From a virus, in the IMG/VR virus record IMGVR_UViG_3300030419_008105, positions 1 to 22,612 of that record: 22,612 bases of DNA; one strand, written 5' to 3'. Position 1 is the stretch's first letter. Each line of letters opens with the position of its first letter. Of this stretch, positions 2,081-21,067 are shown one piece after another. The translations under genes and the position numbers were made by a program. The notes below the pieces were generated by a model. That model saw only the letters and a program-made list of their open reading frames with translations, searched no databases and was not told the origin of the DNA.

Positions 2081-2095
2081 AATATACACTTTTTT
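2081..2095 (-). promoter_or_regulatory. Late-promoter-like element upstream of the tape measure gene
   Basis: Minus strand reads AAAAAAGTGTATATT in the short gap between the upstream gene and the tape measure gene. It matches the consensus AAGTGTAwAwT seen in seven other gaps. The distance from GTGTA to the ATG is 21 nt, the longest of the set, so a leader of roughly 10 nt is expected if the TATATT acts as a -10 element. Confidence 0.6.
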
Positions 2096-2111
2096 CAATC
2101 CTTTTTTCGCG

Positions 2112-3101
2112 CTATGTCATAGTTTCAAGCAAATCTTTCATATCCATACGACCCCCCTTCTCTTTAAGCATGTCACTCAAACTTCTTCCGGACGGATTGG
2201 GCTTATGCCCTAAATATTCGTAATCTTCTTGGGTGGCACCCACAATAGTAGAAGCCCCATCTTTATCGAGGTTGTTTGTAAACTTTTCAGCTTTATCTTG
2301 AGCATTAACATAATCAATGATTTTGGTGGGGTCTTTTTTGATCTGATCAGGCATTTTTGGATAATTTTCAAAAATATTTTTAAACATGCGGGTAAAGACA
2401 ATTAATTTAACTTGACTAGTAGAAAGCTGAAATAACGGCTTATTGTAAAAGTTCATTACATTATCAGAAAAAGGATAACATGTACTATAAAAGTCTTGCA
2501 ATGCTAAAGTTTGAATGTGAAGATCTGAAAAAACTGTTATAGTATTATTATATAATAAAACAATTTCTCGTAATTGCGTTGCATTTAATTCGTCTACTTG
2601 CTCTACAGAAAAAAGAGGCTTTTTAAATTCTATATCATTATAAAAAGAATTTAATACATAATAATCACTAACACGACTTTTAGCATAAACCTCGCAAGTT
2701 TGTCCAATCAACCCCTCTTTAACTCCTTCTAGGTTGAAAAGCTTTATCTGGGCTTCTTCTAATTGTTTTTCATTTGCTTGAAGATCTGTTTTTAAATAAA
2801 GTGATTTGCGTGAAGTCTCCAAACCCTTCATATAATCTTTATGGGTTTGCAACTCCCCTTCTTCGCTATCGCCCCACAGCCCCTCCTCTTTGAGCCGTGC
2901 TAATACCTCATCTCGAGTAGGTAAGCCTCTTTTTTTAGCTTTTTCAAAAAATTTTTCATCTAACACCTCAAGATCAACTTGATCGAGTGCCGATAAATGC
3001 TTAATAAAAACTTCTTTTCCTTCAAAGTCTACACGGGAGTAGCCACATACAATATCGCGAAATAAATAACGATAATTAACCTTTTGCTGGTTCGAGCTCA
3101 C
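2112..3101 (-). CDS. Putative tail assembly chaperone, downstream member of an overlapping pair
   Basis: A 329-residue soluble, charged protein without signal peptide or membrane segment. I do not recognise a conserved domain; the role is inferred from position, directly between another chaperone-like gene and the tape measure gene, where tailed phages encode tail assembly chaperones. The C-terminus is rich in Gly, Asp and Lys ('GHKPNPSGRSLSDML'). The only plausible start is a GTG at 3101, just after an in-frame TAG at 3107-3105, and no Shine-Dalgarno precedes it. The reading frame overlaps the 3' end of the upstream gene by 26 nt in the +1 (equivalently -2) frame. Either translational coupling or a programmed frameshift could produce it. 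Other tail or baseplate functions are possible. Confidence 0.55.
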   Translation of the reverse strand: MSSNQQKVNYRYLFRDIVCGYSRVDFEGKEVFIKHLSALDQVDLEVLDEKFFEKAKKRGLPTRDEVLARLKEEGLWGDSEEGELQTHKDYMKGLETSRKSLYLKTDLQANEKQLEEAQIKLFNLEGVKEGLIGQTCEVYAKSRVSDYYVLNSFYNDIEFKKPLFSVEQVDELNATQLREIVLLYNNTITVFSDLHIQTLALQDFYSTCYPFSDNVMNFYNKPLFQLSTSQVKLIVFTRMFKNIFENYPKMPDQIKKDPTKIIDYVNAQDKAEKFTNNLDKDGASTIVGATQEDYEYLGHKPNPSGRSLSDMLKEKGGRMDMKDLLETMT

Positions 3102-3849
3102 GCACTAATTTATCAAATTCATCTTTTGTTGGGGTGGTTTGACTGAAATACCAATAGCTTGTGAGCGCAGCTAACTTAGCTTGTATTAGCTTAAAGAGTT
3201 CGTCCTCACCCTCATCTTTAGCATAGTAATTATCAATTTTTTCCTCAAACTGCTCTCCTAGAAAGAAAGGTTCTGGAGCCTCCATATCTTGTGTTTTGAA
3301 ATGAGTAAGATGTAGTATGTACCACAAAACAGTACGATTTTGAGCTTTTATATCCGCCGTATGATTGAAGAGGCTCTGGTAAGAAGACTCTAGCGTAACA
3401 ATATTTCTTCTCGTTAAAGCTATTCTTCCATTTATTTCTTTTTCTTTATCACTCAGGCCGCTCTCTTCTATGACCCCCCCGGTTTTAAGCCCCAATTTAG
3501 CTGCTTCCGATTCAAGGTCAGAAAGCTCTCCATAAAGCTCAACCAGTCTGTCCGCATCCTTATCTGTTAGTACTCCCCCTGTATCGGAATATTTCTTAGC
3601 CAGCATAGCTTTGGTAAGAATTCCTTTTTTTATGCAACGGCTGATCTCAATAGAATACTCCATATCCGCTTCCTCTAATTGGCGACGGCCCGGCTCTTTT
3701 AATATTATGTCGTAAGGGACTTTTTCCTTAACTTTACTAGATATCTCAATATCCTCTTCTTTCCCTGTTTCGGGATTTTTGCGTTTTTCCTTTGTTTTTT
3801 TCTCAACTTCGCGCTCTAGGTCGACTTTGAAACTATAAATAGACTTCAT
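3076..3849 (-). CDS. Putative tail assembly chaperone, upstream member
   Basis: A 257-residue, very charged, mostly helical protein. The N-terminal 55 residues are beta-like and Lys/Glu-rich, followed by 'KEPGRRQLEEADMEYSI' and 'CIKKGILTKAMLAKKYSD', a segment resembling proteins encoded just before the tape measure in large marine phages. The rest is predicted coiled coil. The role is inferred from this resemblance and from gene order; T4-like tail chaperone is the closest analogy I can offer. The ATG at 3849 is preceded at once by AAGG. An AT-rich, divergent 67-nt region separates it from the plus-strand head closure gene; on the minus strand this holds AAAGCATAATTTA, a possible degenerate version of the phage promoter element. 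The end overlaps the next gene. Confidence 0.6.
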   Translation of the reverse strand: MKSIYSFKVDLEREVEKKTKEKRKNPETGKEEDIEISSKVKEKVPYDIILKEPGRRQLEEADMEYSIEISRCIKKGILTKAMLAKKYSDTGGVLTDKDADRLVELYGELSDLESEAAKLGLKTGGVIEESGLSDKEKEINGRIALTRRNIVTLESSYQSLFNHTADIKAQNRTVLWYILHLTHFKTQDMEAPEPFFLGEQFEEKIDNYYAKDEGEDELFKLIQAKLAALTSYWYFSQTTPTKDEFDKLVRELEPAKG

Positions 3850-3896
3850 ACCTTATAAATTATGCTTTTAAAATAAGTTTTTTCTAAAAGATTTTG

Positions 3897-3910
3897 AAAA
3901 AGTGTATATT
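3897..3910 (+). promoter_or_regulatory. Late-promoter-like element, leaderless spacing, before the head closure gene
   Basis: AAAAGTGTATATT followed by AATAGC and then ATG at 3917. If TATATT is the -10 hexamer, the sixth base after it is -1 and the A of the ATG is the expected +1. No Shine-Dalgarno is present. It lies in the divergent gap with the chaperone genes. Confidence 0.7.
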
Positions 3911-3916
3911 AATAGC

Positions 3917-4369
3917 ATGGCAAGCCTTTTAACAGATGCAGAAAAGACAACCTGCAACAACGCAATGGACGATCTTCACGATACTTTTGCGAGAGACGTA
4001 ACTGTTTTTAAAGATGCGATAGTTACTGTTTCATCCCCCAGCCAATCTTATAACACTATTTATGGCAACGCAGGCGCAACCACCCCTGTTACGTACACAC
4101 CTCAATCTTCTACGGTTTCCGCAAGAATACTTTATGGTAAAAATTATGATGAAGATTATTTTGCCGCCAGTCAATCTGATTCCCAATTAAAAATCTTTTT
4201 GCCTGAAGGCCAAGTACGAATGATATTTAAAGCAGCTGATTATGATACGGTATCAGAAGCAAAGCGAATAGAATTTGACAGTCAAAAATTTGCCGTTAAT
4301 AGTGACTTTCGAGCTCATGGAGTATTTGGGGTAAAATTCTACACCATCTATCTCAAAAGTGTAAGTTAA
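3917..4369 (+). CDS. Putative head closure / head-tail joining protein
   Basis: About 150 residues. The segment 'FARDVTVFKDAIVTV' with a following 'YNTIYGN' resembles the N-terminal strand of head-closure or head-tail adaptor proteins, which sit between the portal-bound adaptor and the tail and keep DNA in the filled head. The remainder is predicted beta-rich, ending in 'FGVKFYTIYLKS'. A GTG at 3902 would add five residues, but the ATG at 3917 is preferred because the promoter-like element would overlap the GTG start. It is the first gene of a plus-strand run of neck and tail genes, one nucleotide from the next start. The assignment rests on this short similarity plus gene order. Confidence 0.55.
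   Translation: MASLLTDAEKTTCNNAMDDLHDTFARDVTVFKDAIVTVSSPSQSYNTIYGNAGATTPVTYTPQSSTVSARILYGKNYDEDYFAASQSDSQLKIFLPEGQVRMIFKAADYDTVSEAKRIEFDSQKFAVNSDFRAHGVFGVKFYTIYLKSVS
4355..4366 (+). promoter_or_regulatory. Possible late-promoter-like element inside the end of the head closure gene
   Basis: AAAAGTGTAAGTT is a good match to the consensus, but it codes for the last residues of the upstream gene (K-S-V-S-stop) and lies only 7 nt from the next ATG. That is too close for transcription to begin before the start codon, so it may be chance. Confidence 0.25.
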
Positions 4370-4370
4370 G

Positions 4371-4982
4371 ATGGCATATTCAACAAAATCAGTCAGCAGC
4401 AGAACTCTCGCACAAGTGCAACGAGCCCTACCCCAGCAAATGTCTTACATTAGACAGCTTAAACAAACGATAAAAGAAAGGTTAGAAGAAAAACAAAAAG
4501 AAATGCTTGCGAAATTTGATAAACATCCGGTCACCCAAGAAATTGCCGGAGGTGCAAGTGCCACCAATATTAGCGGCACTCTGGGAGGAATAGGAAATTT
4601 GTTTACCTATATAGGTTTTGATGCTGGAGATAAGCCCCTTTCTGCGCTCAGGGAGCTTTTAGAAAAATATGAAATAAGTTTTCACCATATTAAATCTAAG
4701 AGTGTCGTCAGCATAGAGCTTCCCACTAAGGAAGAGTTATTTAAGGCAACTCCTATGCCGTGGGCTACAGGAAGGAGTTGGGCCAAAGGAATAGAAACTG
4801 GTATTTCTGGCTTAGGGCGCTACCTTTCAAATAGTCGATCCCCTCGATCGCGCTCTGGAAAAGGAATACAGGTAAAAGGGCAGATTCGAACCGGTAAATT
4901 TCACAATGTATCTTATTTAACTTTAATACTAAAAGACTATTATAAATCAATCGAAAAGCTCGAAAAAGGCGATCTAACATGA
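4371..4982 (+). CDS. Putative tail completion / neck protein (HK97 gp10-like)
   Basis: A 203-residue protein. A basic helical N-terminus ('QLKQTIKERLEEKQKEMLAK', residues 29-48) is followed by a Gly-rich segment and a conserved-looking patch 'PMPWATGRSWAKGIETGISGLGRYL'-like region around 128-152, then 'SRSGKGIQVKGQIR'. Aromatic/Gly-Arg patches with a C-terminal beta hairpin are typical of HK97 gp10-like tail completion proteins that join tail to head. Placement right after a head closure candidate and before tail genes agrees. It starts one base after the preceding stop and its stop overlaps the next ATG (ATGA), so the run is translationally coupled. The identification is by general resemblance and order only. 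Confidence 0.5.
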   Translation: MAYSTKSVSSRTLAQVQRALPQQMSYIRQLKQTIKERLEEKQKEMLAKFDKHPVTQEIAGGASATNISGTLGGIGNLFTYIGFDAGDKPLSALRELLEKYEISFHHIKSKSVVSIELPTKEELFKATPMPWATGRSWAKGIETGISGLGRYLSNSRSPRSRSGKGIQVKGQIRTGKFHNVSYLTLILKDYYKSIEKLEKGDLT

Positions 4983-5851
4983 AACCACTTTATCAACATA
5001 AACTCTTAACTAGCTTTTATCTATGGTTCGACCACTACCTATTAGATAAAGGAGAAGCCTATAAAAACTTCCAAGGCACTGACTTTTACAATTACTCTGA
5101 TGAGCGTATTCAAAACAAGACAGTCTTTGGTTCTCCTTATAAGCAATGGGTTTATGATAAAAGTATAGAGAACGCTGTAATTCCCACTATTAGCGGGGAA
5201 GCTGGCTCGCTTACAAACCCATCGGGCAATACCACAGGCACAAGTGGATTACTGATTGATTATGATAACGGACGCGTTCTTTTTAATGATGGAGTGTCTT
5301 CTAGCGCTAATATTAGCGGCGGGTATGCCGTCAAAAATTTTAATACATATGTTTCTAATCAAAACGAAGAGAGTTTGATTATGGAAGGTAAATATAAATT
5401 AAATGCCCGCTATACTCGAGAATTAACCTACGTAGCCCCTTACGACGAAGTTACACCTGCCGTATTCCTATCTACTACTACTAGCAACAATGAGCCATTC
5501 GCATTTGGGGGAGAAGATAACACCATCTCTAATATCACGGCTGTAGCTTTTGCTGAAAATACTTATCAGCTAGATGGAATCCTTTCTATCTTTGCAGATT
5601 CTACTAAAGAGATCTTCAATGGAGTTCCCTATACAGGTGCCCCACTAGATGAATACGGAAATATTAAAAGTACTTATCCTACCGGCTATGATTATAAGAA
5701 TGTTGCAAACAACAATTCAACAGACATTTTCTTTATACAAAACACTACTGTTTCAAAGATTTCCGATAGAATGGACAAATTTATACCTGTTCCTCTTTAT
5801 GTAGGTTTTATCGACTTTGAAATCAACAAATACCGTTTTCCACGACAATAA
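4979..5851 (+). CDS. Unrecognised neck/tail structural protein (tail terminator candidate)
   Basis: A 290-residue protein, Asn/Thr/Ser/Gly-rich in its centre, with a helical aromatic N-terminus ('LLTSFYLWFDHYLLDKGEAY') and a beta-rich C-terminus ending 'VPLYVGFIDFEINKYRF'. No signal peptide or membrane segment. I do not recognise a family. Its place between the tail completion candidate and the tail tube gene is where tail terminator proteins usually lie, but the length is greater than usual for that family and the low-complexity Asn-rich middle (residues 75-115) suggests an extra exposed domain. The ATG at 4979 overlaps the previous stop by four bases. Confidence 0.5.
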   Translation: MKPLYQHKLLTSFYLWFDHYLLDKGEAYKNFQGTDFYNYSDERIQNKTVFGSPYKQWVYDKSIENAVIPTISGEAGSLTNPSGNTTGTSGLLIDYDNGRVLFNDGVSSSANISGGYAVKNFNTYVSNQNEESLIMEGKYKLNARYTRELTYVAPYDEVTPAVFLSTTTSNNEPFAFGGEDNTISNITAVAFAENTYQLDGILSIFADSTKEIFNGVPYTGAPLDEYGNIKSTYPTGYDYKNVANNNSTDIFFIQNTTVSKISDRMDKFIPVPLYVGFIDFEINKYRFPRQ

Positions 5852-5905
5852 AAGTTCTCAAAAAACCCTTTTGGCTGTAATTATTTTAAATAACTTTAAA
5901 ATATT

Positions 5906-7411: not shown

Positions 7412-7430
7412 TCCTTCAATTAATTAAGCA

Positions 7431-7463
7431 AAAGCCGCCAAGGGTAACTTTGGCGGCTTTTTT
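7431..7463 (+). terminator. Rho-independent terminator after the tail tube gene
   Basis: AAAGCCGCCAA (7431-7441) pairs with TTGGCGGCTTT (7450-7460) around an 8-nt loop and runs into six T residues. It lies 19 nt after the tail tube stop and closes the plus-strand tail operon, isolating the DUF1552 gene behind it. Confidence 0.9.
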
Positions 7464-7470
7464 ATTATAT

Positions 7471-7482
7471 AAGTGTATAATT
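7471..7482 (+). promoter_or_regulatory. Late-promoter-like element, leaderless spacing, before the DUF1552 gene
   Basis: AAGTGTATAATT lies directly after the terminator. It contains a perfect TATAAT, followed by TAAAGT and then ATG at 7488, so the predicted +1 is the A of the start codon. It has the same GTGTA-to-ATG spacing (10 nt) as the head closure promoter, and no Shine-Dalgarno. Confidence 0.75.
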
Positions 7483-7487
7483 AAAGT

Positions 7488-8735
7488 ATGATTGATAGAA
7501 GAAAATTCATTGGTTCCTTAGGTTTATCTTTAATGCTACCCCCTTTAGAGTGTTTTGGTACCCACTCTCACAATATTAAAAGATTTGCAGCGGTGTATGT
7601 GCCTAATGGTATAAATATGAACCATTGGACTCCGTCTTATTATGGCACCCTAATGGACCTTCCTAGTTCTCTATCCCCTATGATGGATCATATTAAAGAA
7701 ACTCAAATTGTCTCCGGATTAACTCACGATAAAGCTCGCGCAAATGGAGACGGAGCTGGTGATCATGCTCGCGCTTGCTCTACCTTTTTAACAGGCCAGC
7801 AAGCACATAAACACGAGTCTAAAATTCGCTCAGGAAAGTCTCTAGATCAATATCTTGCGGATAAATATAATGGCACAACACGATTTGATAGCCTTCAATT
7901 TAGCGGATCTAAAGCTCGAGTCATTGGTAAATGTGATTCTGGCTACAGTTGCGCTTATCAATATAATTTGTCTTGGAAATCAGCTTCTCAGCCTATGGCC
8001 TCCATGCATGACCCTAAAGACATTTTTAATAGATTATTTAATGTCCAAAAATTAGAGCAAAAACAAAAGCTTCAAAAAAAATCTATACTTGATTTTGTAC
8101 TAGAAGAAAGTAGAGCTTTGTCCAATCGAATACCCGCGGCTGATAAAGCTAAATTAGATGAATATATGTATTCAGTAAGAGAAATAGAACTGGAATTAGA
8201 AAGAAGAGATAAATTTAATCTTTATCATGATTTCAAGTTTAATTTTGATGTAGAACATAAAGCAGATAAATTTAGATTAATTTACGATTTAATGCATCTT
8301 GCCTTTCTGACAGATACATCTAGAGTGATAACCTTCCTCACCGCCCACGATGGCTACAATGGCCCCTACAGAGACATAGGAATTAGCGAAGGGCACCATA
8401 GCCTATCTCACCACCAAAAAGACCCTCAGAAGCTATCTGCGCTCGCTAAAATAGACCTTTTCAACGTAAGGTTGTTTTCTGAATTTATCACGAAAATGAA
8501 AAAAGACAATTTGCTACATAATACTAATATTATTTACGGAGCAGGCATCTCAGATGGCAATAGACATAATCATGACGAATTACCTCTAATGGTTGTGGGA
8601 GCAAGGAAAGAAGGCTCCCATTTTCGCGTAAAAAAAGAAAAACCTATGTGTGATTTATTTGTAAGTATTCTCCATAAGCATGGAATAGCCATGGAGCACT
8701 TTGGGGATTCTACAGGAGAGTTGAATATAGTTTAA
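7488..8735 (+). CDS. DUF1552 family protein with Tat-type signal, phage-borne
   Basis: A 415-residue protein that fits DUF1552 along its whole length. It starts with a twin-arginine type signal, 'DRRKFIGSLGLSLMLPPL', then the family signature 'FAAVYVPNGINM', 'GDGAGDHARACSTFLTG' (about residues 86-102), 'AHDGYNGPYRDIG' and 'IIYGAGISDGNRHNHDELP' near the C-terminus. DUF1552 proteins are known mostly from Planctomycetota, Verrucomicrobiota and some Myxococcota, usually beside DUF1592/DUF1588-type cytochrome genes; their biochemical role is unknown. Here it stands alone among phage genes, between the tail tube terminator and a convergent connector gene, with its own promoter element. Its TAA shares four bases with the opposing stop. 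It looks like a moron acquired from the host and put under phage control. An exported protein acting at the host envelope, or virion-associated, are both possible. Confidence 0.9.
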   Translation: MIDRRKFIGSLGLSLMLPPLECFGTHSHNIKRFAAVYVPNGINMNHWTPSYYGTLMDLPSSLSPMMDHIKETQIVSGLTHDKARANGDGAGDHARACSTFLTGQQAHKHESKIRSGKSLDQYLADKYNGTTRFDSLQFSGSKARVIGKCDSGYSCAYQYNLSWKSASQPMASMHDPKDIFNRLFNVQKLEQKQKLQKKSILDFVLEESRALSNRIPAADKAKLDEYMYSVREIELELERRDKFNLYHDFKFNFDVEHKADKFRLIYDLMHLAFLTDTSRVITFLTAHDGYNGPYRDIGISEGHHSLSHHQKDPQKLSALAKIDLFNVRLFSEFITKMKKDNLLHNTNIIYGAGISDGNRHNHDELPLMVVGARKEGSHFRVKKEKPMCDLFVSILHKHGIAMEHFGDSTGELNIV

Positions 8736-9277
8736 CCATTAAAGGCATTATAAACAACATAATTTGCTTCGCCTGTACCATCTGCTGCATCTAATCCAGC
8801 TACCTGTACGGGAGCCGCATTATAAATATTATATTTAGCAGTAAGTAGCTCTAAACGCTCCTGAGCATCATTAGCGAAACCACGATAAGTTTTAGCAATC
8901 TCGTTCTTATTAGTGCGAGTAATTAAAGAATCTCCATCTCTTAATGTGATAAAGTCTACAGAACTGTCAATCCCTTTTAAGACTGCCCGAGCTTTCTTTT
9001 TATAATATTCAACTAAATAGATTTGTTTAAAAATTTCAGCTTCTTCGAACTTAAAGCTCCCAGTGGTCACCAAGGCGGTATCCCCATCGCTCATTCCAGA
9101 CCCTGAGAAAGCACTATAAATCTCAGTATTTAGAAGGGCGACATTATTTTCAAGCCACCCTGAAATTGCACTTAGCGACTGATAGCCTGTATCGCTATCA
9201 AATTCATCACGATAGATGCCTGTTGCAATCGTGCTTACAAAGTAAGGGGTTTCTTTGCGATTAGAATTCCATGCCAT
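8732..9277 (-). CDS. Putative head-tail connector / portal adaptor protein
   Basis: A 181-residue, mainly helical protein. 'AISGWLENNVALLNTEI' and the long helix 'EAEIFKQIYLVEYYKKKARAVL' (about residues 78-99) resemble adaptor proteins of the HK97 gp6 type, which form a ring under the portal. It is the last gene of the minus-strand head block. An AAGTGTAAATT element precedes it, overlapping the end of the SAP-domain gene; AGG lies six bases before the ATG at 9277 but is weak. The stop is nested with the DUF1552 stop on the other strand. The family assignment is moderate. Confidence 0.6.
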   Translation of the reverse strand: MAWNSNRKETPYFVSTIATGIYRDEFDSDTGYQSLSAISGWLENNVALLNTEIYSAFSGSGMSDGDTALVTTGSFKFEEAEIFKQIYLVEYYKKKARAVLKGIDSSVDFITLRDGDSLITRTNKNEIAKTYRGFANDAQERLELLTAKYNIYNAAPVQVAGLDAADGTGEANYVVYNAFNG

Positions 9278-9285
9278 AGTAACCT

Positions 9286-9296
9286 AATTTACACTT
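9286..9296 (-). promoter_or_regulatory. Late-promoter-like element before the connector gene
   Basis: Minus strand AAGTGTAAATT, GTGTA to ATG spacing 12 nt. It overlaps the stop codon of the upstream SAP-domain gene, so the sequence serves both as gene end and promoter element. Confidence 0.6.
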
Positions 9297-9729
9297 AAAA
9301 ACCTTCTCCTAGAATCTTTTTGGCTTTTTCGTGGTTAGGATGATCAGGGTTGCAAATGGACGGACCTTCGTTTTGTAGTGCAATTGTCTTTTGACCACGA
9401 GTTACGCGGGTGAATTCCTTGCGCAATTTTTCCTGAAGTTCTTTTTTATTGCCGCTTGCATATAATCTAACTTTTCCACATAATCTTTGAAGATCCACTA
9501 AAGTCATTTCTCTCAGCTCTTTTTCAAAGATTTTAGCGTCATTTGTACGAAAATGGTTTACCTCATGAACTCCCAGTTTTTCCTCAAGTTCTTGAATTTT
9601 AGAAAGGGTGTCATCCTCTATTTTGCCGCTAGAATATTGCAAGTTCTCCAATTTAGCTGCTTTTTCCTTACTAGAAGCTGTAGCCTTCTTGGAAGCCTTC
9701 TTTCGTGTGGTTTTGCGTTTTGCTGCCAT
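9295..9729 (-). CDS. Lys-rich SAP-domain DNA-binding protein
   Basis: 144 residues from the ATG at 9729. The first 28 residues are highly basic with Lys/Ala/Thr/Ser ('AAKRKTTRKKASKKATASSK'), like a histone tail. A helix (40-52) leads into a SAP or Rho-N-like fold at 74-106, 'MTLVDLQRLCGKVRLYASGN' plus 'KKELQEKLRKEF', which in known proteins binds DNA. The upstream ATG at 9774 was rejected because it would lie within the terminator and promoter element. The gene sits between the major capsid gene, from which a terminator separates it, and the connector gene. A role in binding packaged DNA or nucleating head assembly is inferred; no enzyme motif is present. Confidence 0.7.
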   Translation of the reverse strand: MAAKRKTTRKKASKKATASSKEKAAKLENLQYSSGKIEDDTLSKIQELEEKLGVHEVNHFRTNDAKIFEKELREMTLVDLQRLCGKVRLYASGNKKELQEKLRKEFTRVTRGQKTIALQNEGPSICNPDHPNHEKAKKILGEGF

Positions 9730-9739
9730 ATTTAATAAT

Positions 9740-9750
9740 AGTATACACAG
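9740..9750 (-). promoter_or_regulatory. Late-promoter-like element before the SAP-domain gene
   Basis: Minus strand CTGTGTATACT, with GTGTA 14 nt from the ATG. It lies just after the terminator of the capsid operon, which would otherwise leave this gene without a transcript. Confidence 0.6.
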
Positions 9751-9758
9751 GATTTTTT

Positions 9759-9792
9759 CAAAAAAAAACTCCACCCCAAAACGGGGTGGAGT
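9759..9792 (-). terminator. Rho-independent terminator after the major capsid gene
   Basis: On the minus strand ACTCCACCCC (9792-9783) pairs perfectly with GGGGTGGAGT (9777-9768) around a GTTTT loop, followed by a run of T residues. It lies 25 nt after the capsid stop codon. The plus strand has no T-run after the stem, so it works in one direction. Confidence 0.92.
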
Positions 9793-9816
9793 CGAATTGC
9801 TTAGCGAAAAGCCCGA

Positions 9817-10968: not shown

Positions 10969-10994
10969 TATATTAATTATTCCTTTCCGAGTTA

Positions 10995-11663
10995 TTAGCC
11001 ATTGTCAGACGGTGCCCATGATGCAGAAGCATCAATGTAAACCATCGCGTACTGTTCTGTACCCGTACCTGCAAACTCATCAGATTGCCCGTTTTGAGAA
11101 GTCCTATTGCCTGTGGCAAGAATATGCCCAACCACACGATGCAAATTCACAAGATCAGTGGAAACTCCGTCCATGGTACCTGCTGTCGAACTGACGCAGG
11201 CAACATTACCCGGAATAAATGTAGCACTCTCTGTGTACGCATCTGCAGAGAAGGTAAACAAACCTCTCACAGCGACCGGAACGGCTTGACCGCTCAGAAC
11301 CGCTTGTAATTCGTCCTTCTTAATCGGATTATAGATGAGTTTTTCACCGTTCTCATCATTTTTAATCGTCTGATTAAGAGTGACTCCCAATACTGGGGCG
11401 CCGGTTGTTGCAGCGGTGCACCGGAGGGGAACTTGAGGGTATTTGTCGGCACCCAAGAATGGATAGTCCGTTTTACCAAGGTAACTAGAAGAAGCTGCGA
11501 ATTCTACTACATCTTTCTTCAGATTACCGCTCAGCACCTTCACTAGTACACCAGCACTACCGTCGCCATTAGTTGATGGATTATCATCAACTATTTGATT
11601 GGCAAACATATTGATCACATCGTGATCACTGTATTGCCTGAATGGATATAGTCTTAATGCCAT
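10995..11663 (-). CDS. Putative capsid decoration / head stabilisation protein
   Basis: 222 residues, beta-rich, low in charge, Ala/Thr/Ser/Gly-rich. N-terminus 'MALRLYPFRQYSDHDVINMF' followed by a beta-rich region with 'GVLVKVLSGN' and 'AVPVAVRGLFTFSADAY' resembles small capsid-associated proteins encoded beside major capsid genes. No membrane or signal segment. Position between the protease-scaffold and capsid genes, with 6 and 26 nt gaps, supports a head role. The region before the ATG at 11663 shows no Shine-Dalgarno; CAGTAACATATTAA is a weak resemblance to the phage promoter element. A minor head protein is the alternative. Confidence 0.65.
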   Translation of the reverse strand: MALRLYPFRQYSDHDVINMFANQIVDDNPSTNGDGSAGVLVKVLSGNLKKDVVEFAASSSYLGKTDYPFLGADKYPQVPLRCTAATTGAPVLGVTLNQTIKNDENGEKLIYNPIKKDELQAVLSGQAVPVAVRGLFTFSADAYTESATFIPGNVACVSSTAGTMDGVSTDLVNLHRVVGHILATGNRTSQNGQSDEFAGTGTEQYAMVYIDASASWAPSDNG

Positions 11664-11669
11664 AATGTT

Positions 11670-13250
11670 TTAATATGTTACTGAAACTGTGTCTGGGTTA
11701 AAAGCCTTCATGAATTTGTCTCGTAGAGACTCTTCCTTTGAAGAAGCTTCATTATTATTAACGATTGCAGGCTCTTCAGCAGCTTCCACGTTTTCCACGA
11801 GATCTTCTACTGTAGCCTCTTCCTTGACGGTAGCTTTCGCTTCGTTAAGGTCAGCTAAACGTTTCTGAAGCTCTTCCTCGAGCTTGGCATCAAAGGCAGC
11901 TTGCTGCTCCTCTTTGTAAGCCTTACTCTTATGCTTAAGGATAACCCCAAGTTTTTGCTGATAACTTTCAAAAGCAGCTTCCGAAGACTCGAGCGCAGCA
12001 ACTTCCTTAGCCAAAACAGCGCGATCACTGTCGTCCAAGTCGTACTGGGAATCGATGTTTTCCATTCTGCTATTGAACAATTCCTCTGCTTGCGCAGAGG
12101 CGATGGTGCCCTCGAGAGAAGAAATCTTCTCTTGAGCCTCTTCGAGTTGCTTTTTAAAAGCATCGATGCTAGCTTTGGCTTCTTCAGCGCGAGCAATCGC
12201 TTCAGCCTTTTCGTTTTCGGCTGCTTCTTTCTCTAGCTTCCATTCCGCATCCTTCTCACGGATCTTATCCATGATATGGGTTGCCATGTTGGCCACAGAC
12301 TCTTGCGAAAACTCGGACTTTTTGCCTAACTTAGAATCGAGCATTTTTTCGAACTCCATAGTTAATTCTTTAGTGTCCATAGTTTTAAAACTGTTATCAT
12401 TTTTTACATTGATTTCTGCATTTTGTGAAATTTTTAAAATATTTTTTTGAATTTTTTCTAAGGTAGGCATAGGCTTTTCTTCAGCTTCGCCATCCTCAAT
12501 CTCCATTTCAACGCTTTCCTGTACTGTAACTCCTTTCACATCAGCAGCAGGTTTGGTAGTAAAACCAATACCTAATGGGAAAACTTCACCTGCCACTAAA
12601 CGATATACAGGTGTCCCATCGTCCATTTTACCGCTACCATCAAAAGCACGCAAATAGTGTTCAAACTCTTTAATCTTATTAGGGTCGGTGATTATTTCGG
12701 CTTCACTGAGATTTTGAGATCCTACCGCGATGTTATAATCATTAAAGCCTAGCTCCCAACTCGCAGAAATCTTGTGATAATCTAAATCTTCAGGGTCACT
12801 AGCTTTTAAGAGAAGCTCAGCAAATTCAGGATTAACAGTCTTATAAATTACCGCTGCTAAGGAAATATAAAAAGGATCTACTCTATTTTCGAGTTTATCT
12901 GTATTTAAAATCTTTTCATTTTCCATATCAGTAAAAGCCGCATTTACGATATGACCTACAACTCGTTGTTTCTTATGTTCTATATTTGTAGGTTTATGAA
13001 CAAAATAATCCACCAAGTCTTTAGCTGTAGCAGAATTGATTCCATCCCCATTCCTATTAAATTTATTAACAATAGCAGCATTAAAGGCGGCTCCTACTAA
13101 ATCAATATTCCTGTCTAAATCTATACCTTTAGGAATCAAAGGCTTCAAATTATCTAAAGAAGCTACGCTAATACTTAGATCTTTTTCTAAGTCGTCTGTA
13201 GCAAAAACCTCAAAGTCAAATTGTGTTTTGAATTTATAAGGGTCACTCAT
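11670..13250 (-). CDS. Prohead protease fused to a scaffold domain
   Basis: 526 residues in two parts. The N-terminal part (1-240) resembles herpesvirus-assemblin-like prohead proteases: His92 in 'NIEHKKQRVVGHIV' and the serine region 'KISASWELGFNDYNIAVG' (160-177). The C-terminal part (from about 285) is a long Glu/Lys/Ala coiled coil (330-400), typical of scaffold, and ends with a charged tail. The linker (255-290) is Asn/Lys-rich and AT-rich. Such fusions self-assemble as the core and are then digested during maturation. An internal ATG at 12380 (Met291) could give a 236-residue scaffold-only product, as in lambda C/Nu3. The gene follows the portal by 20 nt and has its own AAGTGTA element. 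Confidence 0.8.
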   Translation of the reverse strand: MSDPYKFKTQFDFEVFATDDLEKDLSISVASLDNLKPLIPKGIDLDRNIDLVGAAFNAAIVNKFNRNGDGINSATAKDLVDYFVHKPTNIEHKKQRVVGHIVNAAFTDMENEKILNTDKLENRVDPFYISLAAVIYKTVNPEFAELLLKASDPEDLDYHKISASWELGFNDYNIAVGSQNLSEAEIITDPNKIKEFEHYLRAFDGSGKMDDGTPVYRLVAGEVFPLGIGFTTKPAADVKGVTVQESVEMEIEDGEAEEKPMPTLEKIQKNILKISQNAEINVKNDNSFKTMDTKELTMEFEKMLDSKLGKKSEFSQESVANMATHIMDKIREKDAEWKLEKEAAENEKAEAIARAEEAKASIDAFKKQLEEAQEKISSLEGTIASAQAEELFNSRMENIDSQYDLDDSDRAVLAKEVAALESSEAAFESYQQKLGVILKHKSKAYKEEQQAAFDAKLEEELQKRLADLNEAKATVKEEATVEDLVENVEAAEEPAIVNNNEASSKEESLRDKFMKAFNPDTVSVTY

Positions 13251-13259
13251 ACTCTTTAT

Positions 13260-13272
13260 GTTACACTTTTTT
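13260..13272 (-). promoter_or_regulatory. Late-promoter-like element before the prohead protease gene
   Basis: Minus strand AAAAAAGTGTAAC, GTGTA 11 nt from the ATG at 13250. It spans the end of the portal stop codon and the short gap after it. AAAGAG just before the ATG could be a weak ribosome site. Confidence 0.6.
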
Positions 13273-15283
13273 AATCTTTTGGAGAATTCTTAGAGCTATG
13301 ATACAAAATTGCAGATGAGTACTCATCTAATGAATGTTCTGAGCTCAACTCCGTAACAGGAGGAAGTATGTCTAGCTTAAGGATTTTTTTATTGTCTTTT
13401 AAGCAGCTTACCGCTGTGGTTTGCCACTCTGCTTTTTCGCGAGAACAAATAACTGCTTCACATACTTTTTGCAAAATATCCTTTTGTTCCTTAGTTAATC
13501 GTTTCTTTTTGAATACTTTTCGAGCTTCTGTAGTAAGCTTATTATAAAACTCGTTTGTAGAGTCAATTACGTCTTTAATTGCATCTACTGCATAAGTCAC
13601 TTTATTAGCTTGGCTTTTAGCTCCTAAAGGACGTCCGGGAGATTTAGGAGTTTTATTCTTATTTTTTTGCTCCTCTATCATCTTCATATCTCGAGTAAAC
13701 TCTATTTCATCATCCGCTTCTTCAAAAACCGGAACTCCACCTACCAATGGGTTGTACCAGCCCTTTTTACGATCTTCCAAGAATTTTTCTTGAGCACTCT
13801 CCAATTCTCTATTTGAAGGAAATACTCCTGTATCAATTACCTTCATTCCTTCTTCTGGAGGAAGAATACCGAGTTCCATCATACGAGTAATCACGCGTTG
13901 AACCTGATTCTCGTCTTTCATATCAATATCTTCAAACTTAGCTTGAGGTGCATCTCTGAGACCAAAGTTTTTACAGATTTGATCTATTTCAGGTTGCAAA
14001 AATTCTTTGAGGAAAGCCTCACGAGACTCATGTAATCTTTGTAAAAATAATTGAGCCTTAATAGTTGCGTTAGCGAATTTTTCTTCACCTAGCATTGCGT
14101 TCTGTAAACCCTCTTTAATATCGAGGTTAACTACATCATACTTAGATGGTCCAAGAACTTTTTGAAGGTCGGGAATGATAAAATCTGCCTTTGTGGTATA
14201 GTCGCTCACCAATACGCGTCCAACACTTTGATTAGTGAAGAGACTTTGCATAGCGTGCATGTTACGTGGATTTATACCACCTTTATCCGGCGGAGCTCCC
14301 ATTGTTATCATTAAGACAACATTTTCAACGGTACGGCAAATCGCTTGATCAATTTTTTTCATCTCCATCTTGAAGTTGATGTCATCAAGAACAGCAAACC
14401 CAAAAGGGACGCCAAAGGGCTCATAATCTTGCTTCTTGTAGAAAGCATATCGAAGCTTAGATGGATCTAAATCGACCTTAATACCACCGGGCGTCCATGA
14501 ATTGTTTCTTATACGTCGCTTGATATTTTCAGGCAAAGCGTTATAAAGCTCGCGATCTGAATCATTTTTCGGATCTTTTAGTCGCTCTATCTCATATTCA
14601 CTTAGCACTTTAGCAAAAAATCTAACATCAAAAGAAGTAGTACGCTGAGCTACTACATCAAAAGGATTTAGCAAAATATATTTTATCGGAAGCTTGTTAC
14701 TCGCGGCGGTTAGCCCCAAGTTTCTAATGCGAGCAAATTCGTCCGCTTTAAATTTTCCATCCACAGTATAAAAGAAAATATTTCCACTACGGTAATACTC
14801 TCTAAAAAATTGATCCTTCAGTCCCCATATTCCAATTTTTTTAAACCATGAATTAATAAAGCGTCTCGATTTTTCGGATCCTCCATCTAAGTATAATGAA
14901 GAGTTGGCAAAATCTGCCATCATGTCTATAGAGTTTCTAAAGATAGCTACGTTACAATAGGCTTTTTGACAAAGCTCAATAGCTTCGCGTACATTAACGC
15001 CATCCATTGCATATTGGTACGGTAACAACCCATCTCTAATATTATTGTACCCATAGAGCTTAGGCTGAACAGCAATAGCGTTACGACGACGATCTGTTGA
15101 GTCAAAACTTCCATTGCGAGCATAAGCCTCAGAAGTATATTGATAAAAAGAGTCCCCCATGAGCTTCGGCTCATAATCTTCAGTTTTCCCTGCTATGCTT
15201 TCATAGGGATTGTTAGGATACTGAAAATTTTTCTCGAACTTTTTCCAATAGTCCGAGCGTTTCGTATATTTTCTTTTTGCCAT
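13271..15283 (-). CDS. Portal protein
   Basis: 670 residues. The portal ring is the gate for DNA entry and the nucleus for head assembly. Recognisable portal features are 'VREAIELCQKAYCNVAIFRN' (98-117), then 'DMMADFANSS' and 'FFREYYRSGNIFFYTVDG' (159-176), followed by 'LPIKYILLNPFDV' and the clip/stem region with 'VENVVLMITMGAPP'. The C-terminal 130 residues are basic and include 'KSPGRPLGAKS', similar to an AT-hook core, possibly an added DNA-contacting tail. The order large terminase, portal, protease, capsid is canonical. The gene lies 49 nt after the terminase stop and has its own promoter element; no Shine-Dalgarno is visible. Confidence 0.85.
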   Translation of the reverse strand: MAKRKYTKRSDYWKKFEKNFQYPNNPYESIAGKTEDYEPKLMGDSFYQYTSEAYARNGSFDSTDRRRNAIAVQPKLYGYNNIRDGLLPYQYAMDGVNVREAIELCQKAYCNVAIFRNSIDMMADFANSSLYLDGGSEKSRRFINSWFKKIGIWGLKDQFFREYYRSGNIFFYTVDGKFKADEFARIRNLGLTAASNKLPIKYILLNPFDVVAQRTTSFDVRFFAKVLSEYEIERLKDPKNDSDRELYNALPENIKRRIRNNSWTPGGIKVDLDPSKLRYAFYKKQDYEPFGVPFGFAVLDDINFKMEMKKIDQAICRTVENVVLMITMGAPPDKGGINPRNMHAMQSLFTNQSVGRVLVSDYTTKADFIIPDLQKVLGPSKYDVVNLDIKEGLQNAMLGEEKFANATIKAQLFLQRLHESREAFLKEFLQPEIDQICKNFGLRDAPQAKFEDIDMKDENQVQRVITRMMELGILPPEEGMKVIDTGVFPSNRELESAQEKFLEDRKKGWYNPLVGGVPVFEEADDEIEFTRDMKMIEEQKNKNKTPKSPGRPLGAKSQANKVTYAVDAIKDVIDSTNEFYNKLTTEARKVFKKKRLTKEQKDILQKVCEAVICSREKAEWQTTAVSCLKDNKKILKLDILPPVTELSSEHSLDEYSSAILYHSSKNSPKD

Positions 15284-15286
15284 GAT

Positions 15287-15298
15287 AAATTTTACACT
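15287..15298 (-). promoter_or_regulatory. Late-promoter-like element, near-leaderless spacing, before the portal gene
   Basis: Minus strand AGTGTAAAATTT, then ATC and ATG at 15283. GTGTA is 9 nt from the ATG. It lies in the noncoding gap after the terminase gene. No ribosome binding site precedes the ATG. Confidence 0.65.
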
Positions 15299-15332
15299 GA
15301 ATTAATTAAAAGTGACTTTGAAATGTTAAAAG

Positions 15333-17198: not shown

Positions 17199-18132
17199 GA
17201 TCTAAAAAATATTGCATATCTGTTTCCCACACTTTCTTTCCAAAAAATAAGAGACGCAAAATCATCTCTTGAGACGTATCTCTATTTCCTGTAAATAAAA
17301 ACTGACAATGGCCCCGAAACTCATAGCTTAAATCGCGGATGCGCTTAAGAATATAATCTATATTTCCCTTTCTGCCAAATGCCCTGCTAGCTTTAATAAT
17401 TTTTTCAGGAGTCGATTCTATAACTACGAATAAATAAGAGTCTAGCTCTTTAGTTCTTTTTAACTCCCTTTTAAACCTATCATAATTTTTATTACTTAAT
17501 GTAGACTGCAAATCCGAACCAGACTTTCTGTCTACAAAAGTATATGAATAATGTTCTCCAAATAAAGTATAATCCCCTACATCTAGCTTGTGATTCTTCG
17601 TTTCATGGTCGCCGGAAAATTGCAAAGGGGTTTGTTCTCGCGTATCTACAGCAATAGATAAGGAAGGGAGTTCTTGAGTAAAAAAACCCGCAGTTATTTT
17701 TTGATGGTATAAAGGGCGCAACCCAATAAGGTCCGCTGCCTTATTATAACTTCCAAAAACTTTTCTGTAAGTATCAATATCAGGTAAAAAACAACTTTTG
17801 ATTTCTAAATGAAAAGGAGCATAGGATCGTTCTTTCTTTGATTGTCTTTTTTCAATTAATGATAAAATATAATCTTTTACTTCGTGAGAAGGGGCCTCCT
17901 TGCACCATTTTTTTAATTGTTGTTTAGTGGAAAAATCTCTGTCGAAATAGTGATCAATATTTTTAAAAGGGAGCGCTTCTCCTGTTAATTTATTGTAACG
18001 TGGATAATGGAGTGTATAGTATTCAGCCATAGAAAGGCCATGCTGCTTCAAATGCTTATGGAGAGACGCCCTGCCTTCAAACTCTTTTTTGCATTCTGCG
18101 CATTTGAATATTTTTTTTACCACTCGCTCCAT
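17170..18132 (-). CDS. C2H2 zinc finger-ERCC4 nuclease fusion
   Basis: 320 residues. The N-terminus has a classical C2H2 finger: Cys11, Cys14, His27 and His31 (C-x2-C-x12-H-x3-H). A 'TYRKVFGSYNKAADLIGL' segment (121-138) resembles the homing-endonuclease-associated repeat. The C-terminal domain (158-300) has the ERCC4/XPF signature: 'VDTREQ' (162-167), Gly-Asp at 186-187 and 'DRKSGSDL' (201-208), the counterpart of the GDx(n)ERKx3D motif with Asp in place of the first Glu. This predicts a metal-dependent, structure-directed DNA nuclease. It lies between a possible small terminase and the large terminase, overlapping both, with a good AGGAG eight bases before its ATG. A role in genome processing before packaging is inferred. 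Confidence 0.82.
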   Translation of the reverse strand: MERVVKKIFKCAECKKEFEGRASLHKHLKQHGLSMAEYYTLHYPRYNKLTGEALPFKNIDHYFDRDFSTKQQLKKWCKEAPSHEVKDYILSLIEKRQSKKERSYAPFHLEIKSCFLPDIDTYRKVFGSYNKAADLIGLRPLYHQKITAGFFTQELPSLSIAVDTREQTPLQFSGDHETKNHKLDVGDYTLFGEHYSYTFVDRKSGSDLQSTLSNKNYDRFKRELKRTKELDSYLFVVIESTPEKIIKASRAFGRKGNIDYILKRIRDLSYEFRGHCQFLFTGNRDTSQEMILRLLFFGKKVWETDMQYFLDHELDRRNAE

Positions 18133-19205
18133 TATACAATCTCCTGCCTGCTAATACCTAAGACGCGGGCTTTCCAGTCTACCATTTGCTCAATCTTGTC
18201 CGCTTCGTCTTCCACTGCGGTTTTTTGCATATCCGCCATTTTAATCATCAGCTGCCGCTCTTCTTCTTCTTGAAAAAGCTGAACTAAGGCCAATACCGAG
18301 GCGTTTCGTTGCTGCAGATTAGAAATGCGCTTAGCCCTCTCTCCATTTAATTTGGCAATCATTTTATCAATGCGATTAGTGCATTGATTATATTCTTCAG
18401 ATTTAGTTTTGAGCATCTCTGTCAATCTCATTGTTAAATCATTTTGACCTTCCGCGTCATCAAACATTAAATTTAATTTTTGTTTTTGCTGCTCTATTTC
18501 TTTAAGGTTGACATAATCCATACATACATTGATATAAAGATTAAGCTCATCCGCAGTAAGATCAGGCTTATCCCATGTAGATCTAACAAACTCTGACTCG
18601 AAGAGCTCCCTGTTAGCTTTGGTAGTATAAGAATTAATAACTTGCAGAAAACGAGGAGCACCTAAATAGGTCAATAATCTTTCTAGGCATTTTTTGTCTT
18701 GGACATTAATCTTTTCAATTTCAAACTCTTTAAAAACCACCTTGTTAACTTTTTTTATTACGGTCGTCATGATCTTAGGAGGCGCGTAGCGATCACTGGC
18801 GGCATCATCGCGCATGTTAGTTAAATTCGGGAATTCTTTATTGATGAAATCAGATAAAGCAATAAATTTAGCACTTTCATAAAATCCCCTATGATTGGTT
18901 TCGTCTTTCCATAAAAGCTGAGCAATTTCTCTCTTCGTCATTTCAACGCAATAATGACGATGAATAAAATCTTTTTCAGTGTCTTCAAGAAAATATTTAC
19001 TACTTTTTTTCTTAACTTTTGTGCGATACTCGAACCCTTTTTCTACCCAAAACTTACGTAGCGCCCTTCCTCGTACAGTGCTACCTTTTTCATTAGGATC
19101 GTCGAAAAGTTTTTTTGCGGCCTCGTTTAAGTCCCCGTCTAACTCTTTGAATAATTGAACCCCTCGCTCCTTTTCATCTTTGGATAAAACATAATTGTTA
19201 CTCAT
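18132..19205 (-). CDS. Putative DNA-binding coiled-coil protein, small terminase candidate
   Basis: 357 residues. The N-terminal 110 residues are predicted helical with helix-turn-helix-like segments ('DGDLNEAAKKLFDD' and 'MTKREIAQLLW'). A basic linker follows, and the C-terminal half (230-340) is a long coiled coil rich in Glu, Gln and Lys. I do not recognise a named family. The position two genes before the large terminase, a helical DNA-binding N-terminus and an oligomerising coiled coil fit a small terminase subunit, but the length is about twice the usual for that family. It starts inside the sigma gene's end (8-nt overlap) behind AGAGGA and ends in a TAATG overlap with the nuclease gene. 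Confidence 0.5.
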   Translation of the reverse strand: MSNNYVLSKDEKERGVQLFKELDGDLNEAAKKLFDDPNEKGSTVRGRALRKFWVEKGFEYRTKVKKKSSKYFLEDTEKDFIHRHYCVEMTKREIAQLLWKDETNHRGFYESAKFIALSDFINKEFPNLTNMRDDAASDRYAPPKIMTTVIKKVNKVVFKEFEIEKINVQDKKCLERLLTYLGAPRFLQVINSYTTKANRELFESEFVRSTWDKPDLTADELNLYINVCMDYVNLKEIEQQKQKLNLMFDDAEGQNDLTMRLTEMLKTKSEEYNQCTNRIDKMIAKLNGERAKRISNLQQRNASVLALVQLFQEEEERQLMIKMADMQKTAVEDEADKIEQMVDWKARVLGISRQEIV

Positions 19206-19908
19206 AAAAAATATCCTCTTTTTCTATTATTTTTTTTGCTATTGTCTTATATTGATTCTTTAAATTTTTAATTTGCTTATAGCCCGCCTTGCGCCCTTTT
19301 TCATTGCTTTTATATCCTAAAATACGAGCCACCTCTTCTTCAGAGATACCATCAATAAAAAGCATCTTATAAACAAAATAATGACGAGAAGTTAATACAA
19401 TTTTCATGCGCATATGTAATGTGTTTGTAGCGCGCCCAATATCAAAGTGGTCTTCAGGATCCGTGTTTTGCGTATAGGTATGAAATTCTAAAGAAAGGGG
19501 CATTTTAATATCATAGGCATTTTTTTTGGTTTTTTCCCATTTTGCAAAGTCGCCACATTCGTTTGATTGTAATCCGCTAGGCGTAAAAGCGCATAGGGCG
19601 GATATCTGTCCTTCTGCTTGTTCTTTAGATTGGTTGTGCTGGCAATTTAAACATGGTCTGGCAAAATTAGAGTAATTATTGCGTAAAATATTTTTAAGCT
19701 GATTAGAAATAATTTTGTTTACCCATGGCTCTAGCGCACGAGACTGATCCCATTGATCCCATTTTTTATAAATGTGTGCACGAATGATTTGAGCTACATC
19801 ATCAAAATCAAACCACGCGATCGCATGCAGGTGCCATTTATAGTACCGCTTGCGTATTTCGTTGTCTATTATGTGAGCTTTATCTTCGTAAGTGTCATTA
19901 TGCTCCAT
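19198..19908 (-). CDS. Sigma-70-like transcription factor with an inserted cysteine cluster
   Basis: 236 residues. Residues 15-80 look like sigma region 2: 'WFDFDDVAQIIRAHIYKKW' followed by 'RALEPWVNKIISNQLKNILR', the helix pair that binds core polymerase and the -10 element. Residues 82-125 form an insert with Cys86, Cys89, Cys106 and Cys118, likely binding zinc, then 'DFAKWEKTKK'. The C-terminus (175-225) has a region 4-like helix-turn-helix, 'DGISEEEVARILGYKSNEKG'. A small two-domain sigma like this fits ECF-type or phage late sigma factors such as T4 gp55. The zinc-ribbon gene overlaps it by 11 nt. It is the obvious candidate to read the AAGTGTA elements found in this window. Confidence 0.8.
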   Translation of the reverse strand: MEHNDTYEDKAHIIDNEIRKRYYKWHLHAIAWFDFDDVAQIIRAHIYKKWDQWDQSRALEPWVNKIISNQLKNILRNNYSNFARPCLNCQHNQSKEQAEGQISALCAFTPSGLQSNECGDFAKWEKTKKNAYDIKMPLSLEFHTYTQNTDPEDHFDIGRATNTLHMRMKIVLTSRHYFVYKMLFIDGISEEEVARILGYKSNEKGRKAGYKQIKNLKNQYKTIAKKIIEKEDIFYE

Positions 19909-20272
19909 CCTCAGTTATCTGTGGCGTTTGGCGTGGCGCACATTCTGCCATGGATTGAGCGACAATCTTTTCCCTATCTGCTTTACTTTTACGACGCCCT
20001 TTGGTGGGAGTCGCTTTTGAATCAATTTCTTCAGGATTTAGTGGATTATGAAACAAATCCCCCAAAGTAGTCTTGCTGCTCTCAACTTCAATAGAGTACT
20101 CAAGCTTGCTCAATGCGGGGATATCATCCACCTCCTCTGCTTCTTCTTGATGTGTAGCGACTTTCGCTGTGCTCACGGTTCCAAACCTAGCTCCGCAAGA
20201 TTCGCAAAACTTAGGTTTATTTAAAGTGAAGGTAGCTTTCGCTCCACAATCAGGACAAAATATACTAGCCAT
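19898..20272 (-). CDS. Zinc-ribbon protein
   Basis: 124 residues. The N-terminus has two CxxC pairs, 'CPDCGAK' and 'CESCGAR' (residues 6-28), which form a zinc ribbon. The rest is acidic (45-75), has 'LGDLFHNPLNPEEIDS' and a basic 'GRRKSKADRE' tail, and is probably disordered in part. The gene is two bases after the PhoH stop and its end overlaps the sigma-like gene by 11 nt. A transcription accessory role with the sigma factor, comparable in function to T4 gp33, is a reasonable inference from linkage, but no direct motif supports it. No Shine-Dalgarno is visible. Confidence 0.7.
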   Translation of the reverse strand: MASIFCPDCGAKATFTLNKPKFCESCGARFGTVSTAKVATHQEEAEEVDDIPALSKLEYSIEVESSKTTLGDLFHNPLNPEEIDSKATPTKGRRKSKADREKIVAQSMAECAPRQTPQITEDGA

Positions 20273-20274
20273 TT

Positions 20275-21009
20275 TTATATATTTTTAATTTTGGGGATGT
20301 TTTCAATTTTATTTACTATAAATTTAAGAATTTCGCTTCTTACTATATCTTCCTTTGTAAACTCAAAACAATGAATTCCACGTTTTGCGCTTTCTTCATC
20401 ATCGAAAGTTTTATACATGGTTCTAAAGCCTGTTTTACCGTTAATGTCTGATTGTAAAGGGTCTCCACAAATAAACATCTTAGTATTTTGACCTATACGA
20501 GTCACCAATGTAACCAACTCTTTTAATGTAAAATTTTGAGATTCGTCAGCGATAATCAGTTTATTTGCCCAATTTGCCCCTCGCAAATAATTGATAGGTG
20601 CTGCTGAAATTATCTTCTCATCTGTTAGCATTTTAATTTGGTCATTTGTTAAAATTTCTTCCATTTTGTCATTTAGCGGCATCATAAAAGGGTGAAATTT
20701 TTCATCTATGTCTCCGGGAAGATGCCCTAAATTCTTTTCGCCGCTTTCAACGATTGTTCTTACATAGAACATATCGTAATCATTATTTTCATTAAAAATA
20801 CGCAATGCAGAATACACTGACATAAATGTTTTAGAAGATCCGGCGGGGCCGGACACCAACATTATGCGCGTCTCTGGATCAAACGCTTTTTTTAAAAAAT
20901 CTTTTTGCTTATCGGTTAAATCAAACTGTTTAAAATGTAAGTGATATTTGCTTATTATGTTCGGCAAAATTTTTTCCGTCATCTTAGGTTTCTTACGCCT
21001 AGCTGCCAT
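20275..21009 (-). CDS. phoH: PhoH-like ATPase
   Basis: 244 residues from the ATG at 21009. Walker A is 'GPAGSSKT' (54-61), preceded by 'LTDKQKDFLKKAF'; Walker B is 'LIIADESQN' (152-160), then 'GDPLQSDI' (183-190), the typical PhoH ending 'GD..Q.D'. PhoH is common in marine phages and predicted to be an RNA-associated ATPase or helicase-like protein, with no settled function. An upstream ATG at 21111 would add 34 residues, but they are unlike PhoH, and the phage promoter element lies inside them, so 21009 is preferred. This is the first gene of the minus-strand packaging operon. Confidence 0.88.
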   Translation of the reverse strand: MAARRKKPKMTEKILPNIISKYHLHFKQFDLTDKQKDFLKKAFDPETRIMLVSGPAGSSKTFMSVYSALRIFNENNDYDMFYVRTIVESGEKNLGHLPGDIDEKFHPFMMPLNDKMEEILTNDQIKMLTDEKIISAAPINYLRGANWANKLIIADESQNFTLKELVTLVTRIGQNTKMFICGDPLQSDINGKTGFRTMYKTFDDEESAKRGIHCFEFTKEDIVRSEILKFIVNKIENIPKIKNI

Positions 21010-21020
21010 ATGTACATATA

Positions 21021-21031
21021 TAATTACACTT
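21021..21031 (-). promoter_or_regulatory. Late-promoter-like element before the PhoH operon
   Basis: Minus strand AAGTGTAATTA, with GTGTA 15 nt from the ATG at 21009. No Shine-Dalgarno. It overlaps, on the opposite strand, the -35 element of the divergent glycosyltransferase promoter. Confidence 0.6.
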
Positions 21032-21057
21032 GACTTATGTTTTTTTCTACTTAATAT
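21030..21057 (+). promoter_or_regulatory. Sigma-70-like promoter for the glycosyltransferase gene
   Basis: TTGACT (21030-21035), a 16-nt spacer, then TAATAT (21052-21057). The ATG at 21068 is ten bases later, so the leader would be about four bases. This is a host-type promoter, unlike the AAGTGTA elements, which suggests early expression. Confidence 0.6.
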
Positions 21058-21067
21058 CTCAAAAAGA

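Follow-up and report, generated by a model that had tools for sequence, protein, structure and literature searches.

The GTGTA element and its sites

The virus record IMGVR_UViG_3300030419_008105 of IMG/VR, analysed here over its 22.6 kb (the window), encodes a tape measure protein (TMP), a T4-type terminase (TerL), a PhoH-like protein, an ERCC4 nuclease and a sigma factor. Putative genes for a portal protein and a major capsid protein (MCP) are named from distant matches to annotated portal proteins and from gene order only, respectively. A short element with the core GTGTA precedes genes on both strands. A preliminary description of this DNA had listed eight such elements in intergenic gaps, each directed at the next gene. 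We find all eight at their positions and strands (Table 1), with GTGTA in 8/8, and each site lies upstream of a same-strand gene and faces that gene. The earlier list needs some amendment: the element before g9 overlaps the stop codon of the upstream gene, the one at 9740-9750 has no A ahead of GTGTA, and the copy at 4357-4367 had been overlooked.

Table 1. Predicted regulatory elements and key genes of the window.
Feature	Positions	Strand	Context
Candidate promoter element AAGTGTATATT	2081..2091	-	before the tape measure gene (TMP, 3-2063)
Candidate promoter element AAGTGTATATT	3900..3910	+	before g4 (3917-4369), ATG 6 nt away
Extra copy AAGTGTAAGTT	4357-4367		before the gene at 4371; present in 1/12 orthologues, i.e. 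not conserved
Intrinsic terminator	7430..7461	+	14-pair stem, end of the g7 unit; 10 nt before the DUF1552 element
Candidate promoter element AAGTGTATAAT	7471..7481	+	before the DUF1552 gene (7488-8735), ATG 6 nt away
Candidate promoter element AAGTGTAAATT	9286..9296	-	before g9 (8732-9277); overlaps the upstream gene's stop codon
Variant element CTGTGTATACT	9740..9750	-	before g10 (9295-9729); no A ahead of GTGTA
Intrinsic terminator	9767..9793	-	downstream of the capsid-protein gene, 17 nt ahead of the g10 element
Candidate promoter element AAGTGTAACAT	13258..13268	-	before g13 (11670-13250)
Candidate promoter element AGTGTAAAAT	15289..15298	-	before the portal gene (13271-15283), ATG 5 nt away
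Sigma factor gene	19198..19908	-	regions 2 and 4 with four invariant cysteines between them; Pfam, fold, alignment
PhoH-like gene	20275..21009	-	Pfam PhoH 1.2e-45; first gene of the sigma/TerL operon, order conserved
Candidate promoter element AAGTGTAATTA	21021..21031	-	before PhoH, head of the PhoH-g19-sigma-g17-ERCC4-TerL operon
Sigma-70-like promoter TTGACT-16-TAATAT	21030..21057	+	divergent glycosyltransferase gene; -35 overlaps the PhoH element

The window contains ten copies of the hexamer AGTGTA, counted on both strands. In eight of them a gene on the same strand starts no more than 21 nt further on, and no copy is directed away from a gene which it precedes, while annotated gaps make up 2.5% of the window. 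These eight copies differ from the eight elements listed earlier in that they include 4357-4367 and exclude 9740-9750, which lacks the A. Among the 22 upstream 30-mers of the window AGTGTA is the top 6-mer (8 vs ~0.1 expected; log10 p = -12). The excess stands against shuffled controls, with a maximum of 4 copies in 2000 dinucleotide shuffles of the upstream regions, and 5000 draws of random coding windows gave a maximum of 2. By count alone the longer form AGTGTAWAWT, with one mismatch allowed, shows no enrichment in the window (13 vs 9.6), so that the evidence for the motif is positional.

Conservation at unit heads and anatomy of a probable promoter

IMG/VR holds many relatives of the window virus, and 161 loci were compared. 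Among GenBank phages (50,697 records) the group has no close relative; we found no megablast match to the whole window and no tblastn match with MCP or sigma factor, and TerL and portal protein gave distant matches only, at 21-27% identity. A literature search that reached few subscription journals returned no description of the promoter or of the phage group.

Gene order in the relatives is conserved in the units PhoH-g19-sigma-g17-ERCC4-TerL, portal, g13-g12-MCP, g10, g9 and g4-g5-g6-g7, and the element sits at the unit heads. Counted over distinct orthologous upstream regions, GTGTAW precedes TMP in 14/14, g4 in 15/16, g9 in 17/17, g13 in 44/45, the portal gene in 76/76 and PhoH in 24/24. 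For g10 the count is 17/29, and the regions without GTGTAW, among those listed, mostly carry AGTTGTAATAT or AGATGTAATAT, i.e. A-G-(T/A)-TGTAATAT. The element is absent or almost absent upstream of g2, g6, MCP, g12, TerL, ERCC4, g17 and the sigma gene; in the 64 MCP upstream regions AGTGTA is never found and GTGTAW only four times. In the region 3850-3900, the gene g3, divergent from g4, heads a unit, mostly without the element.

AGTGTA is again the top upstream 6-mer in 13 longer relatives with contigs of 28-71 kb (74 vs 3.1 expected). Of the 250 AGTGTA copies in the relatives, 75 precede a same-strand gene by 30 nt or less and 10 point the wrong way, with 3-8 in controls. GTGTAW further stands ahead of about 30 gene families without detectable homology to each other, among them those of a tail assembly protein and an RIIB-like protein. 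The relatives are not independent, yet unrelated gene families count as separate cases. Gene starts in the relatives come from a simple script or from alignment, and errors in them blur the spacing. In the most distant contigs (G001 and G007) some elements are masked by automatic gene starts and become visible when the portal regions are read directly.

The shape of the element is that of a -10-like hexamer, TAwnnT, preceded by GTG. Its T and A are invariant, and the last T is found in 59-78% of sites depending on the sample. A promoter role is very probable in view of this -10 shape, of the two strong terminators that end 10 and 17 nt ahead of an element and of its lack before operon-internal genes. 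A phage-specific promoter serving head and tail genes through a -10 element, as had been proposed, agrees with a motif that is conserved, directional, located at unit heads and linked to a phage sigma gene. The proposed lack of a shared -35 element holds for a strong one, since no column exceeds 0.32 bits at the -35 place across 30 families; a weak T-rich block is nevertheless present in the relatives, about 19-24 nt upstream of GTGTA. A one-occurrence model of the upstream sequence returned a T-rich Ttt.g. with a log-likelihood of 18.4 vs 8.6-9.1 in control windows, at scattered positions. T-runs of preceding terminators may contribute to this signal, and we claim no -35.

The element could also be an extended -10 read by the primary sigma factor of the host. 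TAwnnT resembles a -10 box, TG lies just upstream of it, and good sigma-70-like promoters on the same contigs indicate that the host sigma factor is used somewhere. We nevertheless consider this unlikely. The invariant GTG abuts the hexamer and is one base off the classical TGn spacing, whereas the sigma-70-like promoters of these contigs have a clear TTGACT or TTGACA at 16-17 nt and no GTG. With two promoter sequence types in the same contigs, two classes coexist. AGTGTAWAWT shows no enrichment over its reversed control (4 vs 11 and 30 vs 29) in two bins of metagenome-assembled genomes (MAGs) that hold a relative's contig and need not be the true host. Genes of a Verrucomicrobiales genome, which may not be the true host either, likewise rarely have GTGTAW upstream.

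Both classes meet between PhoH and the divergent glycosyltransferase gene. In the region 21021-21067 the element (TTACACTT on the + strand) has its last two bases in common with TTGACT, the -35 of the sigma-70-like promoter. In 17 relatives of the clade a TTGAC-containing -35 is found together with a -10-like hexamer, at a spacing of 16 in most. On this arrangement the two polymerases would exclude each other, and the phage sigma factor could silence the glycosyltransferase gene while activating the PhoH operon.

The distance between element and start codon is short. Measured from the final A of GTGTA it is mostly 9-14 nt, with 10 as the commonest value when weighted by family over 30 families; for the motif as such the distance is usually 7-14 nt, within a range of 7-21 nt. 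Given this 9-14 nt spacing, a transcription start 7 nt past the hexamer predicts leaders of about 0-4 nt. By the criterion of the preliminary description, 5' RNA ends should map 5-8 nt downstream of the element; although not remarked on there, this would bring transcription starts to the start codon itself or to a few nt from it. A leaderless mRNA has been defined by a 5' end less than 8 nt from the start codon (PMC10783764). Shine-Dalgarno-like sites are found in 0/9 and 4/106 motif genes, compared with 64/595 control windows inside genes, while most of the MCP genes listed carry GAAAGGA or AAAGGA. The sigma-70-like promoters of the same contigs lie 5-13 nt from the start codon in 13 of 24 entries. 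Leaderless or nearly leaderless translation of the motif genes is a prediction consistent with this spacing.

A ribosome-binding or start-site signal acting in the mRNA would also be expected to lie close to the start codon, at a fairly constant distance, in genes that lack Shine-Dalgarno sites. We regard this reading as highly improbable, since the element is nearly missing before operon-internal genes that need translation too, MCP among them, follows directly after terminators, varies in distance over the full range given above, has the shape of a -10 box and occurs alongside a sigma factor gene.

Upstream of the portal element, at 15299-15330, lies a palindrome-like AAAGTCACTTTTAA that is kept across clades. 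It is possibly a site for another regulator.

The phage sigma factor and known systems

The sigma factor gene, overlooked in the preliminary description, lies in the PhoH-to-TerL operon, which is itself headed by the element. Its protein matches Pfam Sigma70_r2 above the cut-off, and the region 2 match is found in 31/31 aligned relatives. The NCBIfam model sigma70-ECF matches over residues 29-200, under the family cut-off. PHROG 1740 is matched by 28/31 members, with a best value of 1.8e-7, and by the window protein only over residues 13-77 (8.9e-6). A sequence-profile search of the PDB with the sigma factor gave no match. In the AlphaFold model (mean predicted local distance difference test score 70.5) the linker is poor, and the root-mean-square deviation of whole-protein superpositions is large because the linker is not predicted. 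The structure matches are separate for region 2 (residues ~1-79) and region 4 (~152-234), and the closest solved structures among the matches listed are sigma factors only, namely SigH, SigE, SigL and Sigma28. For the region 4 fold (residues 152-234), 1s7o gives a Z of 8.2 over 69 residues and 2h27 a Z of 7.9 over 70 residues. A Z of about 8 is moderate for small helical domains; the Pfam and NCBIfam sigma70-ECF matches make the sigma assignment firm.

Between regions 2 and 4, the residues C85, C88, C105 and C117 are invariant in 31/31 relatives, which suggests a metal site. A homologue of the sigma factor is present in 85 of the 161 loci, many of these loci being short. A search with the sigma profile in 193 genomes around a Verrucomicrobiales MAG returned as its only true match the phage contig of that MAG, besides six weak partial sigma matches.

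The closest known case, in sequence and in kind, is given by the middle/late promoters of phage phiEco32, read by gp36, which consist of the single element tAATGTAtA with a start 6-8 bp downstream (PMC8948821). A start at this distance would predict a leader of 0 to a few nt in our phage group. Both systems share a phage factor of the sigma-70 family, a TGTA core, the lack of a strong -35 and the service to structural genes. Both proteins match PHROG 1740, gp36 at 1.9e-45 over its full length and the window protein over residues 13-77 only, and there is no protein alignment beyond this profile (hhalign probability 0.2). They differ in that gp36 is described as lacking region 4, whereas the window sigma factor has region 4 and the four-cysteine insert. 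The base ahead of TGTA is G in most of our sites and A in phiEco32. The late promoters of phage 7-11 are likewise read by host RNA polymerase with a late sigma factor of the phage, gp47, but they are strongly two-part and of another sequence, GTAAtg-16-aCTA (PMC8948821). The short, phage-specific late promoters of phiKZ and AR9 are similar in kind and differ in being read by phage multisubunit RNA polymerases, with leaders of 26-491 nt in AR9 (PMC5312081).

The specific likeness to T4 late promoters drawn in the preliminary description finds no support in this comparison. A single element at the -10 position with A/T-rich sequence downstream and no -35 is indeed what T4 uses through gp55, gp33 and gp45 (PMC2988020), and both the occurrence on both strands and the T4-type terminase would fit. 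Strict T4-type late transcription, with a gp55-like factor, a sliding clamp and a co-activator on a TATA box, is nevertheless the least probable of the readings considered, since GTGTAwwwT is not the 8-bp TATA box and the sigma factor has a region 4, unlike gp55 and unlike the T4 late RNA polymerase, which has no sigma-4-equivalent domain (PMC2988020). No clamp or gp33 homologue was identified in these fragmentary contigs, but the single clamp search relied on a PCNA family that gave control hits in archaea only and is unsuited to the question.

Proposed regulation, host and significance

We consider it likely that AA-GTG-TAwnnT serves as promoter for a second class of transcription, probably a late one, and is read by the sigma factor of 19198-19908 on host RNA polymerase, giving leaderless or near-leaderless mRNAs. 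The term late is inferred from gene content alone. In this model the phage sigma factor would take the place of its host counterpart on the RNA polymerase of the host. It would read GTGTA together with the A/T-rich remainder of the -10-like hexamer and make no more than a weak contact further upstream. Transcription would begin about 6-8 nt beyond the hexamer, at or a few nt ahead of the start codon, so that in each unit the head gene would be translated from an mRNA with no leader or almost none. For operon-internal genes, the capsid gene among them, Shine-Dalgarno-like sites could serve instead. Once made from another promoter, the sigma factor would amplify its own synthesis because its operon is headed by the same element.

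Several observations weigh against this model. With a region 4 in the sigma factor, one would expect a more distinct -35 than this weak T-rich block, and in phage 7-11 a region-4-bearing phage sigma factor reads a two-part promoter (PMC8948821). All contigs are fragments, and a second phage sigma factor elsewhere is possible. Of the AGTGTA copies in the relatives, 175/250 are not upstream of any called gene, and AGTGTA alone is therefore insufficient to define a promoter. Some unit heads, such as that of g3, lack the element, and TMP starts 12-21 nt from it, which predicts a longer leader. A more far-reaching proposal, to which we give an even chance, is that nearly every unit of both the phage-sigma and the host-sigma-like class starts with a leaderless or near-leaderless mRNA and that the sigma factor, with a metal-binding insert separating region 2 from region 4, represents a new type.

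Two bacterial-type genes in the window bear on the host. The DUF1552 (HXXSHH) gene at 7488-8735 is found in 2/161 loci; it lies among tail genes, is preceded by a terminator, has a phage-type element of its own and appears to be a cargo gene fitted with a phage promoter. Verrucomicrobiales genomes contain up to 52 matches to its protein. At 22219-22612 the start of a pilin-like gene carries an N-terminal methylation motif and has weak matches to Verru_Chthon cassette models. Together these genes hint at a host in or near Verrucomicrobiota, a phylum in which some members are reported to be scarce in Shine-Dalgarno sites (PMC10783764). A prophage and host search returned four MAG contigs of the phage group in bins from different bacterial phyla, which points to no single host. 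The public MAGs that hold the contigs L163, L164 and L165 go under the names Halobacteriovorax, Flavobacteriaceae and Verrucomicrobiales, a spread suggesting that at least some of these contigs were misbinned.

With the element and the sigma factor, an uncultured phage group gains a readable transcription map with unit borders, a regulator and its target sequence. The predicted sigma factor is paired with a promoter sequence, which makes its specificity directly testable. If the predicted starts are true, the structural genes would mostly be translated from leaderless mRNAs, and this would be possible only in a host that initiates well without Shine-Dalgarno sequences.

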